A DNA stretch of 64,000 nucleotides from an uncultured Clostridia bacterium (GTDB lineage Bacteria; Bacillota; Clostridia; Monoglobales; Monoglobaceae): the NCBI GenBank assembly GCA_947589045.1, contig CANQBQ010000001.1:62001-126000 (forward strand), written 5' to 3'. The notes below the pieces were generated by a model. It worked only from the letters and a program-made list of their open reading frames with translations, was not told where the DNA came from and made no database searches. The first letter of the stretch is position 1. Each line of letters opens with the position of its first letter. Below are positions 19,045-59,574 of this stretch, piece by piece. The position numbers and the translations under genes were made by a program.

Positions 19045-19089
19045 AACAAGTTTCACTTTACAAATCGGCGGCTGTATGGTAAACTAAAA

Positions 19090-19192
19090 ATTGTCAGATA
19101 ACTTAAAAAGACACGCACCAATTTACCTTTTGGTAAAAATGTGTGCTCCTTTTTCGTGTGCGTGTTTTTTGCTCGAAAAGTTATCTGACAAT
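19090..19192. repeat. 103-bp inverted-repeat element, MITE-like or long hairpin
   Basis: Perfect 15-bp terminal inverted repeats (19090-19104 ATTGTCAGATAACTT and 19178-19192) enclose a nested 8-bp pair (ACACGCAC 19111-19118 with GTGCGTGT 19158-19165) and a central 6-bp TTTACC/GGTAAA pair. It has no coding capacity. No target-site duplication is evident to me. It could be a miniature transposable element or a transcribed stem-loop. Confidence 0.6.
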
Positions 19193-19214
19193 AACCGGAG
19201 CGGCACGTTTTTAC

Positions 19215-19240
19215 GCGCGGCTTCGTGCCGCGCATTTTTT
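19215..19240 (+). terminator. Terminator-like hairpin
   Basis: GCGCGGC, loop TTCGT, GCCGCGC, then A and six T. It has intrinsic terminator form on the plus strand, but no gene lies directly upstream except the inverted-repeat element, so it may end a transcript through that element. Confidence 0.6.
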
Positions 19241-19400
19241 GTTTATAAGAAGTGATATATTCAAAATATCCAGAAATTGCGCGAAAAAATATATATCTGC
19301 GTGCGATAAAAGGAGGGATATTGAAAGCACGGTATCTTTGATGTCAAGCATTGCCATAATTAAAACCCCGCGTAATTTCTGTGCGGGGTTTGCCTATAGT

Positions 19401-43108: not shown

Positions 43109-43468
43109 TTGATTTTTCTCAATAGTGTGGTATAATAACATTACCACATTTTTTATTATTATATAATTTAATAACGCTATATTGGCTTTGAACTTCACAA
43201 CTTTAAACCTGTTGTGTAAAAGTTTGTGTTTTGTTAAAAACGCAGGCTGAAATTTTATAGAGATACTTTTGCACACAAGGTTTTTGGTTGAGCAGCGTTT
43301 CTTTATATAATAATAAAAATGTGTGGTAACATTAAATCTAAGCTGCGTTTTTGGTGCGTGGCGTAGATTTATGCCCGCATTTTTTGTTTGCGTGAGTTTT
43401 TCGGAAAGGAGACGCGGCACGCAAACCGTAATTTGCGGAAAAGATTTACAAAAGAAAGGACAGAGCTT
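43109..43468 (+). promoter_or_regulatory. Promoter and attenuator-like leader of the first LRR gene (copy A)
   Basis: Promoter TTGATT (43109-43114), 16-base spacer, TATAAT (43131-43136). The leader of about 330 bases folds as a long closing helix (43141-43166 with 43303-43329, about 25 bp), an inner hairpin CACAAC/GTTGTG (43196-43216) and a conserved TTAAAAACGC near 43233. Then comes a switch: AAATCTA (43334-43340) can pair with TAGATTT (43364-43370), or TGCGTGGC (43355-43362) can pair with GCCCGCA (43373-43379) followed by six T, an intrinsic terminator. A 9-bp helix GTTTGCGTG/CACGCAAAC (43386-43394 with 43418-43426) competes with CGCAAA/TTTGCG. The same layout precedes the second LRR gene. 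The ligand or sensor is unknown. Confidence 0.65.
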
Positions 43469-45337
43469 ATGAAAAAATTTTTATCGGTAATTTTATGCGC
43501 GATTATGATTTTGCCGGCAATTCCAATCACGGTGGGTGCGGAAACTCAAGGATATTATACCTATAAGATTTCAGACGGTAAAGCAACAATTACGGATGTT
43601 GATACATCAATTTCCGGTAATGTAATTATACCGCAAATTCTTGGGGGTTGCCCTGTCACGGGTATAGGCTTTAGTTCATTTGCGCAATGCAAAAATATTG
43701 TAAATGTCGTTATACCAAATGGCGTTACAAATATAGAGCAAACCGCATTTTCGAGTTGTAGCAAATTGGAAAAAGTTACCATTCCTGATAGTGTAATCAA
43801 TATAGGACCTGGAGCGTTTCAGCTTACAAAAATAGCAAATGACAAAAATAATTGGCAGAATGGTGGTTTGTATATCGGAAAATATCTTATAACGGTTGGA
43901 GACGTGCCTAAAGACGAGGTGGAAACATTTGAAATAAAAAACGGAACTCGTTGTATTGCTGGAGGAGCCTTTTCCGGCTGTACCAATCTTAAAAATATAA
44001 GCGTGCCAAACAGTGTAATAGGAATTGGCGATAGTGCATTTTCTGGTTGTGCAAGTCTTACAAGCATAGACATACCACGCGGCTTAATAAACATCGGCTA
44101 TAAAGCGTTTGCTTCTTGTTGTAGCTTGGAAAACATAACAATCCCCGACAGCGTAACGAGCATTGGCGATGGCGCTTTTAGCGGGTGCATTAATCTTACA
44201 AGCATAAATATATCAAATGGTGTAAATAGTATTGGCAAGAATGCATTTGCCGATTGCAGTGGATTGATAAGTGTGATAATCCCCGACAGCGTAACAAGTA
44301 TTGGTTATGATGCGTTTTCCGGATGTACTGGTTTACAAAATGTTACTCTTTCAGGAAATATTAATGTTTTAAGCGCTTTAGGTTTTGAAACATGTGAAAA
44401 TCTTAAAAGTGTTGTTATAGGCGACGGAACAACAATTATTGAACATGGAGCATTCTACGGATGTAAAAGTATTAAGGAAGTAAAAGTTCCGAAAAGCGTA
44501 CAAACGATAAATGATATAGCTTTTGCAAATTGCGGAAATTTAAATATAACAGTAGAGGAAAATAACCCGTATTACAGCAGTATAGAAGGGGTATTGTTTA
44601 ATAAAGACAAAACCAAGATAATAGCATATGCCAAAGATAAATCACAACCCAAATATTCAATACCAGTCAGTACTACAAGCATTGATAGGTATGCGTTTGA
44701 CGATTGCAGTAGTTTAACAAGTGTCACAATACCGAACAGCGTCACAAGCATTGGCGAGAGTGCGTTTTACGGTTGCAATAATTTAATCAACATAACTATA
44801 CCGAATGGAGTTACAGAAATTTTGGAATATACATTTACTGATTGCTCAAGTCTTAAAAAAATAGCTTTGCCTAAAAGCCTAAAAACGGTTGGGCGTGTAG
44901 CGTTTGATGGCTGTCTCAGTTTAACAGATGTATATTACGACGGAAGCGAGGAAGAATGGAATAAAATTGAAATAAGCAGAGGTACAACAGAACTTGGCGG
45001 AGATAATAGCACCTTGACCAATGCCACGATACATTATAATTCGGGAACAGATACCGAGCCGACAAAGTTTGCCGGTGTGCCGACGGTGAGTGCGGGAAAC
45101 GGAGTATATAACGTTTCGGCTACGCTTCAGGATATAGACAAAAGCTGTGTTATGGTAGCGGCTGTATATAACGGCAGGAAGCTGGCGGGAGTAAAAATTA
45201 TAAATTTATCCAAGGGGCAGACAAGTGCGGTCGCTTCGGTGAGCGCTGTCCGCGCGGACACCGCAAAAGTGTGCATATGGGACAGTGCAAAAAATATGAA
45301 GCCGCTATGCGAGCCGAAAATAATTACTATAAAATAA
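43469..45337 (+). CDS. Secreted BspA-type leucine-rich-repeat protein (first copy)
   Basis: A 622-residue exported protein. It starts at the ATG at 43469 (AAAGAAAGGA box), giving signal peptide MKKFLSVILCAIMILPAIPI followed by TVGAET. Many 23-residue LRR_5 repeats (pattern I-P-x-S-V-T-S-I-G-x-x-A-F-x-G-C-x-x-L) fill residues about 45-520, ending with the usual BspA cap VYYDGSEEEWNKI. The C-terminal 85 residues are the shared module ending KVCIWDSAKNMKPLCEPK. BspA proteins bind host or microbial surface molecules in Bacteroides and Trichomonas; the ligand here is unknown. It is AT-rich relative to neighbours, which suggests acquisition or relaxed codon use. Confidence 0.9.
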   Translation: MKKFLSVILCAIMILPAIPITVGAETQGYYTYKISDGKATITDVDTSISGNVIIPQILGGCPVTGIGFSSFAQCKNIVNVVIPNGVTNIEQTAFSSCSKLEKVTIPDSVINIGPGAFQLTKIANDKNNWQNGGLYIGKYLITVGDVPKDEVETFEIKNGTRCIAGGAFSGCTNLKNISVPNSVIGIGDSAFSGCASLTSIDIPRGLINIGYKAFASCCSLENITIPDSVTSIGDGAFSGCINLTSINISNGVNSIGKNAFADCSGLISVIIPDSVTSIGYDAFSGCTGLQNVTLSGNINVLSALGFETCENLKSVVIGDGTTIIEHGAFYGCKSIKEVKVPKSVQTINDIAFANCGNLNITVEENNPYYSSIEGVLFNKDKTKIIAYAKDKSQPKYSIPVSTTSIDRYAFDDCSSLTSVTIPNSVTSIGESAFYGCNNLINITIPNGVTEILEYTFTDCSSLKKIALPKSLKTVGRVAFDGCLSLTDVYYDGSEEEWNKIEISRGTTELGGDNSTLTNATIHYNSGTDTEPTKFAGVPTVSAGNGVYNVSATLQDIDKSCVMVAAVYNGRKLAGVKIINLSKGQTSAVASVSAVRADTAKVCIWDSAKNMKPLCEPKIITIK

Positions 45338-49060: not shown

Positions 49061-49082
49061 AAGGCAAATAAAGCCGATATTT
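49061..49082. repeat. 22-base repeat, copy B
   Basis: Identical to 45886-45907. It is located between the FMN aptamer and its terminator. An exact 22-base match between two unrelated leaders is unlikely by chance. Confidence 0.7.
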
Positions 49083-49083
49083 T

Positions 49084-49218
49084 ATCTTCTTCCATCCAGA
49101 CTATACTGTTGGTTTTGGAATTTCACCAAATCCTGACTTGAACCTCTGCCAAGTCCTGCGCCGAAACGCTCGCGGACTGTACCGCCAATCGGGAATTTCA
49201 CCCTGCCCCGAAGACATA
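49084..49218 (-). promoter_or_regulatory. FMN riboswitch (RFN element)
   Basis: Read on the minus strand it begins TCTTCGGGGCAGGGTGAAAT and contains CCGATTGGCGGTACAGTCCG, GGATTTGGTGAAATTCC, CCAACAGTATAGTCTGGATG and ends GGAAGAAGAT. These are the conserved blocks of the RFN aptamer, including the closing helix TCTTC/GAAGA. It controls ribU by premature termination at the hairpin at 49014-49054. Confidence 0.97.
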
Positions 49219-49237
49219 CTATTCAGTTGTTAATATA

Positions 49238-56855: not shown

Positions 56856-57392
56856 ATGAAAGCAACAGGAATAGTAAGAAGAATTGACGACCTCGGTCGT
56901 GTTGTTATACCAAAGGAAATCCGCCGTACAATGAGAATACGGGAGGGCAACCCCCTTGAAATTTTCACCGATAATGACGGCGGCGTAATTTTTAAAAAAT
57001 ATTCTCCGATAGGAGAGCTGGGAGAGTTTGCGGCGCAGTACGCCGAGAGCCTTTCCAAGACTACGGGCATACCCGCCTGCATAACCGATAAGGACAATGT
57101 TATCGCGGTTTCGGGAACCTCGAAGCGGGAGCTTTCGGACAGACCCGTATCGAGCGACATCGAGCGGATTATGGAAAACAAGGTGATGCTTCTGGCGGAC
57201 TCGTCCACCGGCAAGATAAACGTAATCGAGGGCAACGACAAGTACACCGCCGGAGTTGTCGCGCCGATAATTTTTGAGGGCGACAGCATAGGCTCGGTGA
57301 TTTTTCTGACCGACGACGATAAGAAAATCACCGAGGTGGAAACCAAGCTCGCCGAGACCGCCGCAGGCTTTCTCGGTCGCACTATGGAGTAG
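56856..57392 (+). CDS. spoVT: Stage V sporulation transcription regulator SpoVT
   Basis: A 178-residue regulator. N-terminal AbrB-type swapped-hairpin DNA-binding domain (1-50, TGIVRRIDDLGRVVIPKEIR) and C-terminal GAF domain (about 55-178). Match to B. subtilis SpoVT is close across the whole length. SpoVT tunes sigma-G-dependent forespore genes. A GGAGG box precedes the ATG. Presence argues that the organism sporulates. A strong terminator follows. Confidence 0.95.
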   Translation: MKATGIVRRIDDLGRVVIPKEIRRTMRIREGNPLEIFTDNDGGVIFKKYSPIGELGEFAAQYAESLSKTTGIPACITDKDNVIAVSGTSKRELSDRPVSSDIERIMENKVMLLADSSTGKINVIEGNDKYTAGVVAPIIFEGDSIGSVIFLTDDDKKITEVETKLAETAAGFLGRTME

Positions 57393-57473: not shown

Positions 57474-57774
57474 TTGATTTTTCTTGATAATGTGGTATAA
57501 TAAAACCGTCCGAAAGGGCACTACCACAATCTCTAAATTAAATAATCAGTTGCAAAGCGAGTGTTGCTAAAAACGCCGGCTTCTATTTTGTTATACTTTG
57601 TAATTGATTATTTAGTATGCAGAGATGTGTGGTAGCATTAAAATCTAAGCCGCGTTTTTGTGCGTGGCGTAGATTTATGCCACGCATTTTTTGTTTGCGT
57701 GAGTTTTTCGGAAAGGAGACGCGGCGCGCAAACCGTAATTTGCGTAAAAATTTACAAAAGAAAGGACAGAGCTT
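57474..57774 (+). promoter_or_regulatory. Promoter and attenuator-like leader of the second LRR gene (copy B)
   Basis: Promoter TTGATT (57474-57479), 16-base spacer, TATAAT (57496-57501), near-identical to copy A. Closing helix: 57521-57534 pairs with 57621-57635 (one bulged G), then 57539-57552 with 57601-57614, then CAAAG (57553-57557) with CTTTG (57596-57600). Conserved inner TAAAAACGCCGGCT lies near 57568. Antiterminator AAATCTA (57641-57647) with TAGATTT (57670-57676) excludes terminator TGCGTGGC (57661-57668) with GCCACGCA (57679-57686) and six T. The downstream alternative helices are kept: GTTTGCGTG now pairs with CGCGCAAAC through a G-U. Helices agree with copy A although the arm sequences differ. 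Confidence 0.65.
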
Positions 57775-59574
57775 ATGAAAAAATTTTTAGCAATGATTTT
57801 ATGCGCGATTATGCTTTTGCCGACAATTCCAATCACCGTCGGCGCGGAAACGCTCGACAGCGGTACTTGCGGAGATAATTTGACGTGGACATTTGACAGC
57901 AGCGGCACGCTCACAATCAGCGGCACAGGCGAGATGGAATATTATCTTATGGTTTATCCTCCTTGGCGTGAGCATTTTTCAGAAATTACAACTCTTGTTA
58001 TAGAGGAGGGCGTAAAACGTATAGGAGAAGGTGCGTTTAAAGAGTGCAATAAGCTGGTAAACATTACCATACCTGACAGCGTGACTTCTATCGGCGAATA
58101 TGCGTTTGGCGGAGATGGTTATACAATGTCTGCTTATTACAGTGATGAATCGAACTGGGAAAACGGCGTATTGTATATAGATAATTGTTTGATTGCTTCA
58201 AAATCAGATATAACGGAGTGTAAAATAAAAGATAGTTGCAAGGTTATTGCCGATATGGCTTTTGACCGACGCAAAGAATTGGCACAAGTAACAATCCCCG
58301 AAGGAGTGAGAAATATCGGGCAACAAGCCTTTTACGAGTGTGAGAATTTAAATAATATTAACATTCCGAATACTGTTGAAAGTGTTGATTTTTACGCCTT
58401 TAAGGATACCGGCTATTATAAAAACGAAGCAAATTGGCAAGGCGACTTAATTTATATAAATCATTGCCTAATCGGTGCAAAAGATGTTGCAACAAAATGC
58501 AATATTAAAGACGGTTGCAAAATTATTTCCGGCGGTGTATTTAAAGAGTGTGATTTTACGGATATTACAATACCTGACAGCATAACATATATCGGTTCTT
58601 ACGCATTTTCAGGCTGTCGTAATTTGACAAGTATAGCCATTCCCGATGGCATAACGGAAATTAAGGAGGAGACCTTTGATTATTGCACAAATTTAAAAAG
58701 TGTTTCTATTCCCGACAGTGTAACCTCTATAGGTTCAAGAGCATTTGACTGTAGCGGTTTAGTCGATATTACACTTCCCAAATATGTGACCGAAATCGGC
58801 GATGGCGCATTTAGTTTTTGTAGAAAATTAAAAAATATTGTAATTCCGGATAGTGTAATAAAAATTGACTACTCTGCGTTTTCCGGTTGTACCGGTTTGG
58901 AAAATATAGCAATATCCAAAAGTGTAGCATATATTAGTATTGGTGCTTTTGACGAGTGTGGAAACTTAAATATAAATGTAAGTCCGTATAATCCCTATTA
59001 TTCCGATATAGACGGTGTTTTATTTAATAAAGAAAAAACCGAAATAATTACATATGCCAAAGATAAAATACAGCCCGAATACTCAATACCAAGCGGCGTC
59101 AAAAACATAGGCGATAAGGCGTTTTATTGGTGCAGTAGTTTAACAAGCGTTACAATACCCGACAGCGTAAAAAGCATTGGTGATAGGGCATTTTATTGGT
59201 GTAGCAGCTTAACAGACGTATATTATGCAGGTAGTGAGGAGCAATGGGAAAATATAACTATCGAAGGCGACAACCATTCTCTGAGAACGGAGATTATACA
59301 TTACAACAGCGACGTGTATCCGAGGATTGAGGTGTCCGAGCCGGTGGTTGAGGGCGGAAGTATAACAATAACCGCTGAAAGAAAAAATATTGGGGGAGAG
59401 GGCGAACTGTTTGCGGTAGGCTACGACGGAAACAAACTCACGGCTTCGGAAAAACTGCAAGGCGGCGCGGCGACTCTGCCCGCCGAGGACGTGAAAACGA
59501 TAAAAGTTTTCTGCTGGGACAGCCTTGACACAATGCGCCCGCTGTGCGAGCCGAAAACAATTACGATAAAATAA
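57775..59574 (+). CDS. Secreted BspA-type leucine-rich-repeat protein (second copy)
   Basis: A 599-residue exported protein. Signal peptide MKKFLAMILCAIMLLPTIPI then TVGAET is nearly identical to the first LRR protein, but the mature N-terminus differs (LDSGTCGDNLTWTFDSSGTL, a Listeria/Bacteroidales-type beta strand repeat). LRR_5 repeats (IPDSVTSIGEYAFGG type) fill about 75-500, then the BspA cap VYYAGSEEQWENITIEG, then the shared C-terminal module (about 515-599, ending IKVFCWDSLDTMRPLCEPK). It has the same leader RNA as the first copy. Probably a surface or secreted adhesin; ligand unknown. Confidence 0.9.
   Translation: MKKFLAMILCAIMLLPTIPITVGAETLDSGTCGDNLTWTFDSSGTLTISGTGEMEYYLMVYPPWREHFSEITTLVIEEGVKRIGEGAFKECNKLVNITIPDSVTSIGEYAFGGDGYTMSAYYSDESNWENGVLYIDNCLIASKSDITECKIKDSCKVIADMAFDRRKELAQVTIPEGVRNIGQQAFYECENLNNINIPNTVESVDFYAFKDTGYYKNEANWQGDLIYINHCLIGAKDVATKCNIKDGCKIISGGVFKECDFTDITIPDSITYIGSYAFSGCRNLTSIAIPDGITEIKEETFDYCTNLKSVSIPDSVTSIGSRAFDCSGLVDITLPKYVTEIGDGAFSFCRKLKNIVIPDSVIKIDYSAFSGCTGLENIAISKSVAYISIGAFDECGNLNINVSPYNPYYSDIDGVLFNKEKTEIITYAKDKIQPEYSIPSGVKNIGDKAFYWCSSLTSVTIPDSVKSIGDRAFYWCSSLTDVYYAGSEEQWENITIEGDNHSLRTEIIHYNSDVYPRIEVSEPVVEGGSITITAERKNIGGEGELFAVGYDGNKLTASEKLQGGAATLPAEDVKTIKVFCWDSLDTMRPLCEPKTITIK

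Follow-up and report, generated by a model that had tools for sequence, protein, structure and literature searches.

Leader RNAs in the window

The window, as the whole 64,000-nucleotide stretch of Clostridia DNA analysed here is called, contains two genes for LRR proteins, each preceded by the same cassette (copies A and B, Table 1). The cassette consists, in order, of an extended -10 promoter, a closing helix (P1), an inner P2/P3 domain that holds strands S' and S, strand T, an intrinsic terminator and the gene. A sequence-only reading of the window had noted this order of parts, with a near-identical promoter, closing helix, antiterminator and terminator, and all of them were seen in both copies. 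The window has exactly two occurrences of the terminator core TGCGTGGCGTAGATTTATGCC, in copies A and B, where 0 are expected. A GTTTGCGTG/CACGCAAAC hairpin that follows the terminator is common to the LRR copies and lies outside the wider family. Directly 5' of copy B is an AbrB/SpoVT-type ORF (window 56856-57392, +) with a weak match to the N-terminal half of the AbrB-zinc profile.

Copies A (43109-43385) and B (57474-57692), each folded from its predicted RNA start to the terminator, gave MFE z values of -6.57 and -7.96, and none of the 200 dinucleotide shuffles was equally stable in either case. Covariance-model scores were 102.8 bits for copy A and 113.4 bits for copy B. The conserved TAAAAACGC, described as unpaired in the earlier reading, is in fact S and pairs either with the upstream GTGTTTT or with the downstream GCGTTTTT just before the terminator. 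The calculated energy of the S:T duplex in copy A is -13.7 kcal/mol. The AAATCTA/TAGATTT antiterminator of that reading is present but was drawn too short; AAATCTA plus GCTGCGT pair with GCGTGGC plus TAGATTT, giving ~14 bp around one mismatch. A third, more divergent copy lies at 19058-19241, with a covariance-model match at 19132-19239 (42.2 bits, E = 3.2e-6).

Table 1. Positions of cassette parts and downstream genes in the window.
Feature	Position	Strand	Details and basis
Copy A promoter	43109-43136	+	-35 TTGATT 43109-43114, extended -10 TG-G-TATAAT 43128-43136; sequence
Copy A closing helix P1, 5' arm	43141-43166	+	At predicted RNA 5' end; fold, family covariation
Copy A S' (GTGTTTT)	43226-43232	+	Local partner of S; folds
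Copy A S (AAAAACGCAGGCT)	43236-43248	+	Putative switching strand; duplex energy, pair counts
Copy A P1, 3' arm	43303-43329	+	Fold
Copy A T (AAGCTGCGTTTTT)	43340-43352	+	Partner is S or terminator 5' arm
Copy A antiterminator hairpin (AAATCTAaGCTGCGT / GCGTGGCgTAGATTT)	43334-43370	+	-16.4 kcal/mol
Copy A intrinsic terminator	43355-43385	+	T-run 43380-43385; -14.7 kcal/mol
Gene after copy A	43469-45337	+	LRR-repeat protein with signal peptide
Copy B promoter	57474-57501	+	TTGATT 57474-57479, TATAAT 57496-57501
Copy B P1-closed domain	57521-57635	+	Arms start TACCACA, end GTGTGGTAG; fold
Copy B S (AAAAACGCCGGCTT)	57569-57582	+	
Copy B T (AAGCCGCGTTTTT)	57647-57659	+	
Copy B antiterminator hairpin	57641-57676	+	Fold; -19.0 kcal/mol
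Copy B intrinsic terminator	57661-57692	+	T-run 57687-57692; -19.3 kcal/mol
Gene after copy B	57775-59574	+	BspA-type LRR protein; Pfam LRR_5, E 6.8e-87
Copy 3 promoter	19058-19086	+	TTTACA 19058-19063, TGG-TAAACT to 19086; sequence
Copy 3 P1-closed domain	19091-19193	+	ATTGTCAGATAACTT 19091-19105 / AAGTTATCTGACAAT 19179-19193
Copy 3 S	19136-19150	+	Inside P1-closed domain
Copy 3 T and terminator	19198-19241	+	T GGAGCGGCACGTTTTT 19198-19213; T-run 19236-19241

Distribution, promoters and target genes

A search with the 3' half of the element recovered a further close copy on contig C14 of the window's genome (locus L020), together with more distant ones. An exact pattern built from the P1 3' arm and T was scanned over 84,980 species genomes and gave 79 matches, ~64 of them full elements in Clostridia assemblies, chiefly of animal-gut origin. 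The remaining 15 were scattered, were without the parts and were dismissed by eye as chance matches. The invariance of the P1 3' arm and T in this first set is partly ascertainment, because the pattern fixed both. The sequence-only reading had proposed a covariance search of Clostridia genomes, and such a search found other copies across them. At E ≤ 0.01, model R1 detected 14 copies in the genome of the window. Within the same family, most genomes of one genus had 10-23 copies. R1 matched in 74/392 Clostridia genomes; the matches among good genomes, 59/354, come from ~20 families. Carriers include the cultured Lachnospiraceae bacterium MD329, with a copy at L106, and L164 has a compact copy. 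A phylum-wide sample of 250 genomes, the specificity control for R1, had a match only in the window's own genome (0/249 others). The one-contig complete genome G021 is placed in the copy-rich genus g6, yet has 0 copies. Carriage by phages or plasmids gave no match with narrow patterns and one BLAST query.

In 110/111 elements a -10 box immediately precedes a segment that is complementary to the sequence on the 5' side of T. It is of the extended type (TGnTATAAT) in 100/110, and a spacing of 5 nt to the P1 arm is commonest (69/110). Because only the best-scoring -10/arm combination per element was kept, a small number of assignments may be incorrect. The P1 arms vary yet remain complementary (TACCAC/GTGGTA, TGCCAC/GTGGCA, TGCTAC/GTAGCA, TGCGAC/GTCGCA, TGTCAC/GTGACA and TGCAAC/GTTGCA), and L022 has a quite different pair, GTCACACAAATGA / TCATTTGTGTGAC. 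The RNA probably starts within P1, and promoter and RNA appear to form one cassette. Tandem cassettes occur, each with its own promoter (three in L175 and two in L177). A promoter palindrome, TGTGGTA...TACCACA, was considered as an operator and rejected; it is missing in many members, and the extended -10 and P1 sequences explain it.

Two arrangements depart from the single complete cassette. L212 (410-630, reverse complement) holds two copies 9 nt apart, the second seemingly without a 5' arm and promoter of its own; it could reuse the P1 5' arm of the first. At L021 3000-3358 (-) and the end of L026, a signal-peptide gene with a comparable leader has its promoter and ...TTACCACATTTTTG immediately followed by the post-terminator leader, as though the entire attenuator had been left out. 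Contigs C9 and C5 seem to overlap at this gene.

Of 107 elements, 88 are followed within 350 nt by an ORF that is co-oriented and has a ribosome site, and 2 have only a convergent ORF. Domain assignment of 78 non-redundant downstream proteins gave LRR_5 in 17, Cu_amine_oxidN1 in 7, CHAP in 4, and DUF6273, a MazE/AbrB-type domain and the YpsA SLOG family in 3 each. LRR genes, the proposed targets of the sequence-only reading, are the commonest class (17/78), but the targets also include many exported proteins of other kinds and a small number of regulators. Proteins of ≥150 aa that had a hydrophobic segment or a lipobox under a simple rule were called exported-like. By this rule 40/59 downstream proteins are exported-like compared with 85/328 other ORFs (p = 1.5e-9, for proteins that are phylogenetically non-independent), and lipoproteins are also among the exported targets. 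Genes for AbrB-like/zinc proteins lie repeatedly downstream of the element (in G000, G006, G017, G025, G029, G035 and G056), and such a gene can have two or three tandem copies in front of it. Copy 3 and the elements of L210 and L212 have a short AAGCACGGCTTCTTTGGTGTCAAGC-like sequence downstream (for copy 3 at window 19320-19375) instead of a long ORF. A ribosome-site-like GGAGGG precedes it in two of the three copies, and it is possibly a small ORF or a further part of the RNA.

Mutually exclusive pairings and covariation

Strand S lies inside P1, has the consensus AAAAACGCAGGCUU and pairs locally with S'. The S' of copy A is GTGTTTT, and other versions matching S are found in L056, L061 and L111. 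Strand T, AAGCCGCGUUUUU, lies after P1 and before the terminator. The 5' arm and loop of the terminator pair with T to form the antiterminator, which shares bases with the terminator. An S:T duplex is present in 67/67 elements of the first set and spans ~13 bp, mostly with one bulged base, for example 5'-AAAAACGC(A)GGCUU-3' with 5'-AAGCCGCGUUUUU-3'. In L113 the letters of both S and T are changed and the pairing is kept (AAAAATACATGG / CCATGTGTTTTT). The S:S', S:T and T:terminator 5' arm pairings thus form a chain of mutually exclusive pairings that runs from S' through S and T to the terminator 5' arm. In several copies, S' freed of S can also pair with a GCATAC/TCATAC-type segment further downstream, which would lengthen P2. 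Pairing of the P1 3' arm with the terminator 3' arm was tried as a second antiterminator. Most copies fit it, by sequence similarity, and it was not adopted because L013 and L038 copies with different terminators misfit.

Pair statistics were calculated from two alignments. In a MAFFT alignment of 45 elements, 96.8% of S:T and terminator cells were paired compared with 35-61% in slid controls, and 15 pairs were changed on both sides compared with 5.2 (sd 1.2) after shuffling (0/500). The second alignment, A4, contained 72 distinct hits fitted to the covariance model and gave 94.7% paired cells, 19 pairs changed on both sides and 217 double-change cells compared with 53 (sd 9); these counts lean towards structure because A4 was aligned to the model. 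Terminator cells were 94-99% paired, with a T-run, in both alignments. Antiterminator cells were 90.3% paired and 22 were changed on both sides compared with 8.5; antiterminator double-change pairs alone were not above shuffles (6 compared with 4.5). When elements were taken singly, 37/111 S:T duplexes beat all 100 shuffles, 81/111 beat at least 95, and 106/111 mapped to S. The selection for RNA structure claimed in the earlier reading is borne out, the copies pairing better than shuffles, S:T and P1 covarying strongly and the terminator covarying as well.

Mean energies were -17.2 kcal/mol for the terminator, -14.8 for the antiterminator, -13.1 for S:T and -5.2 for S':S. The energies of terminator and antiterminator lie close together, and once S:T is added, termination is favoured in almost all elements. 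The shared bases and pairing counts support the attenuation of transcription by competing antiterminator and terminator that had been suggested. Most invariant bases of the family are in S and T, and the internal-loop sequence is conserved only partly. TGnnATA on the 3' side of the P2/P3 internal loop occurs in 28/111 elements against a random expectation of 4.8, and TGTCATA in the loop occurs 10 times against 0.3. The recurring TGnnATA is the leading candidate recognition site.

Proposed mechanism, signal and known RNAs

The RNA is probably a class of cis-acting, strand-exchange transcription attenuator that is absent from Rfam. In the proposed mechanism, P1 would place S beside T. Pairing of S with T across P1, a predicted pseudoknot, would block T from the terminator 5' arm, so that the terminator forms and transcription stops (OFF). 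With S kept on S', T would pair with the terminator 5' arm and loop, and the resulting antiterminator would allow transcription of the gene (ON). Pairing of the freed S' with the GCATAC/TCATAC-type segment would stabilise OFF. The balance would be shifted by a small molecule or protein that acts on P2/P3 as the signal, and many copies per genome would define a regulon of mostly exported proteins. Both states presumably occur in cells, and the energies suggest that OFF would be the default.

Two readings of the signal are finer versions of the attenuator that differ in its source, and each is a tentative possibility. A common metabolite or second messenger could move S by binding the P2/P3 internal loop as an aptamer, and the many copies per genome before exported-protein genes, which resemble second-messenger regulons, the recurrent TGnnATA and the tandem copies all fit such a riboswitch. 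The partial conservation of the loop, with most invariant bases in S and T, speaks against it. Its c-di-GMP version is disfavoured for a general ligand because five of the 25 carrier genomes tested (G029, G066, G123, G281 and G398, completeness 94-98%) are without a GGDEF protein. G021 encodes 14 GGDEF proteins and has 0 copies; five g6 relatives have 11-22 copies and 0-3 GGDEF proteins. An RNA-binding protein could instead hold S':S or S:T and control the regulon, which we consider conceivable to a similar, limited degree. Many dispersed copies that share short invariant sequences and gene targets that recur across families are consistent with protein control, and an AbrB-like/zinc gene behind two or three tandem copies would fit feedback. 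Genomes that do not carry the RNA often encode AbrB-like/zinc proteins as well, so these proteins are not a specific partner, and an obligate partnership was rejected on the same evidence.

The alternatives to a sensory attenuator fare worse. That the element is a dispersed repeat or mobile element, with promoter and terminator falling in its hairpins by chance, is very unlikely. A repeat of this kind would fit the high copy number per genome, the near-identity of leader segments between the LRR copies and the tandem copies, but the arms diverge with compensation and not by neutral decay, the copies lie 5' of co-oriented genes (88 compared with 2 convergent only), and narrow patterns and one BLAST query gave no viral or plasmid match. 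Attenuation by ribosome stalling on a leader peptide is extremely unlikely; the terminator/antiterminator layout resembles that of amino-acid operon leaders, but an ATG frame with a ribosome site is found in only 7/107 leaders and P1 begins at the predicted RNA 5' end.

The RNA would work like a riboswitch-type attenuator; it is a member of no tested family. Like terminator/antiterminator riboswitches and T-box leaders, it lies in a 5' leader, has an antiterminator and a terminator that exclude each other, and occurs in several copies per genome, also in tandem. Unlike these, it has no T-box or known aptamer, its targets are mostly exported proteins, and its S, inside a helix that closes at the 5' end, reaches the antiterminator strand by bulged long-range pairing. 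The c-di-GMP riboswitches GEMM-I and GEMM-II control a multi-copy regulon that includes surface genes in Clostridia. The present RNA differs from them in having no Rfam match and in several carrier genomes that are without GGDEF proteins.

Published candidate motif sets (Weinberg 2010, PMC2864571; Fremin and Bhatt 2021, PMC8040213; PMC8632094; PMC11109978) consist of structured-RNA candidates from bioinformatic searches, some of them from gut Clostridia. The passages of these articles used for the comparison do not describe the arrangement found here. Literature searches, which covered openly readable article texts, yielded no description; an unnamed prior entry in a supplementary motif collection is possible. 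The RNA family is apparently undescribed.

We lean slightly towards a new sensory RNA class, either a riboswitch or a switch that senses a protein, through which many gut Clostridia coordinate their surface and secreted proteins. If this is true, one sensor design would have up to ~20 uses per genome and one common signal. An orphan attenuator in ~1/6 of the sampled Clostridia genomes suggests a shared signal governing display and secretion. Ligand searches could use the conserved S, T and inner loop as a compact, testable RNA, and any genome can be annotated for the family with the covariance model.

Rfam 15 scans of the window, the homologues and compact copies assigned the element to no family and returned only sub-threshold chance matches there. 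This agrees with the earlier statement that it is no known riboswitch and no T-box; RF00230 was unmatched at the gathering threshold in the window and 13 loci, and in E-value scans. The window's only Rfam match is an FMN riboswitch aptamer at 49080-49219 (-), with a score of 108.7 bits.
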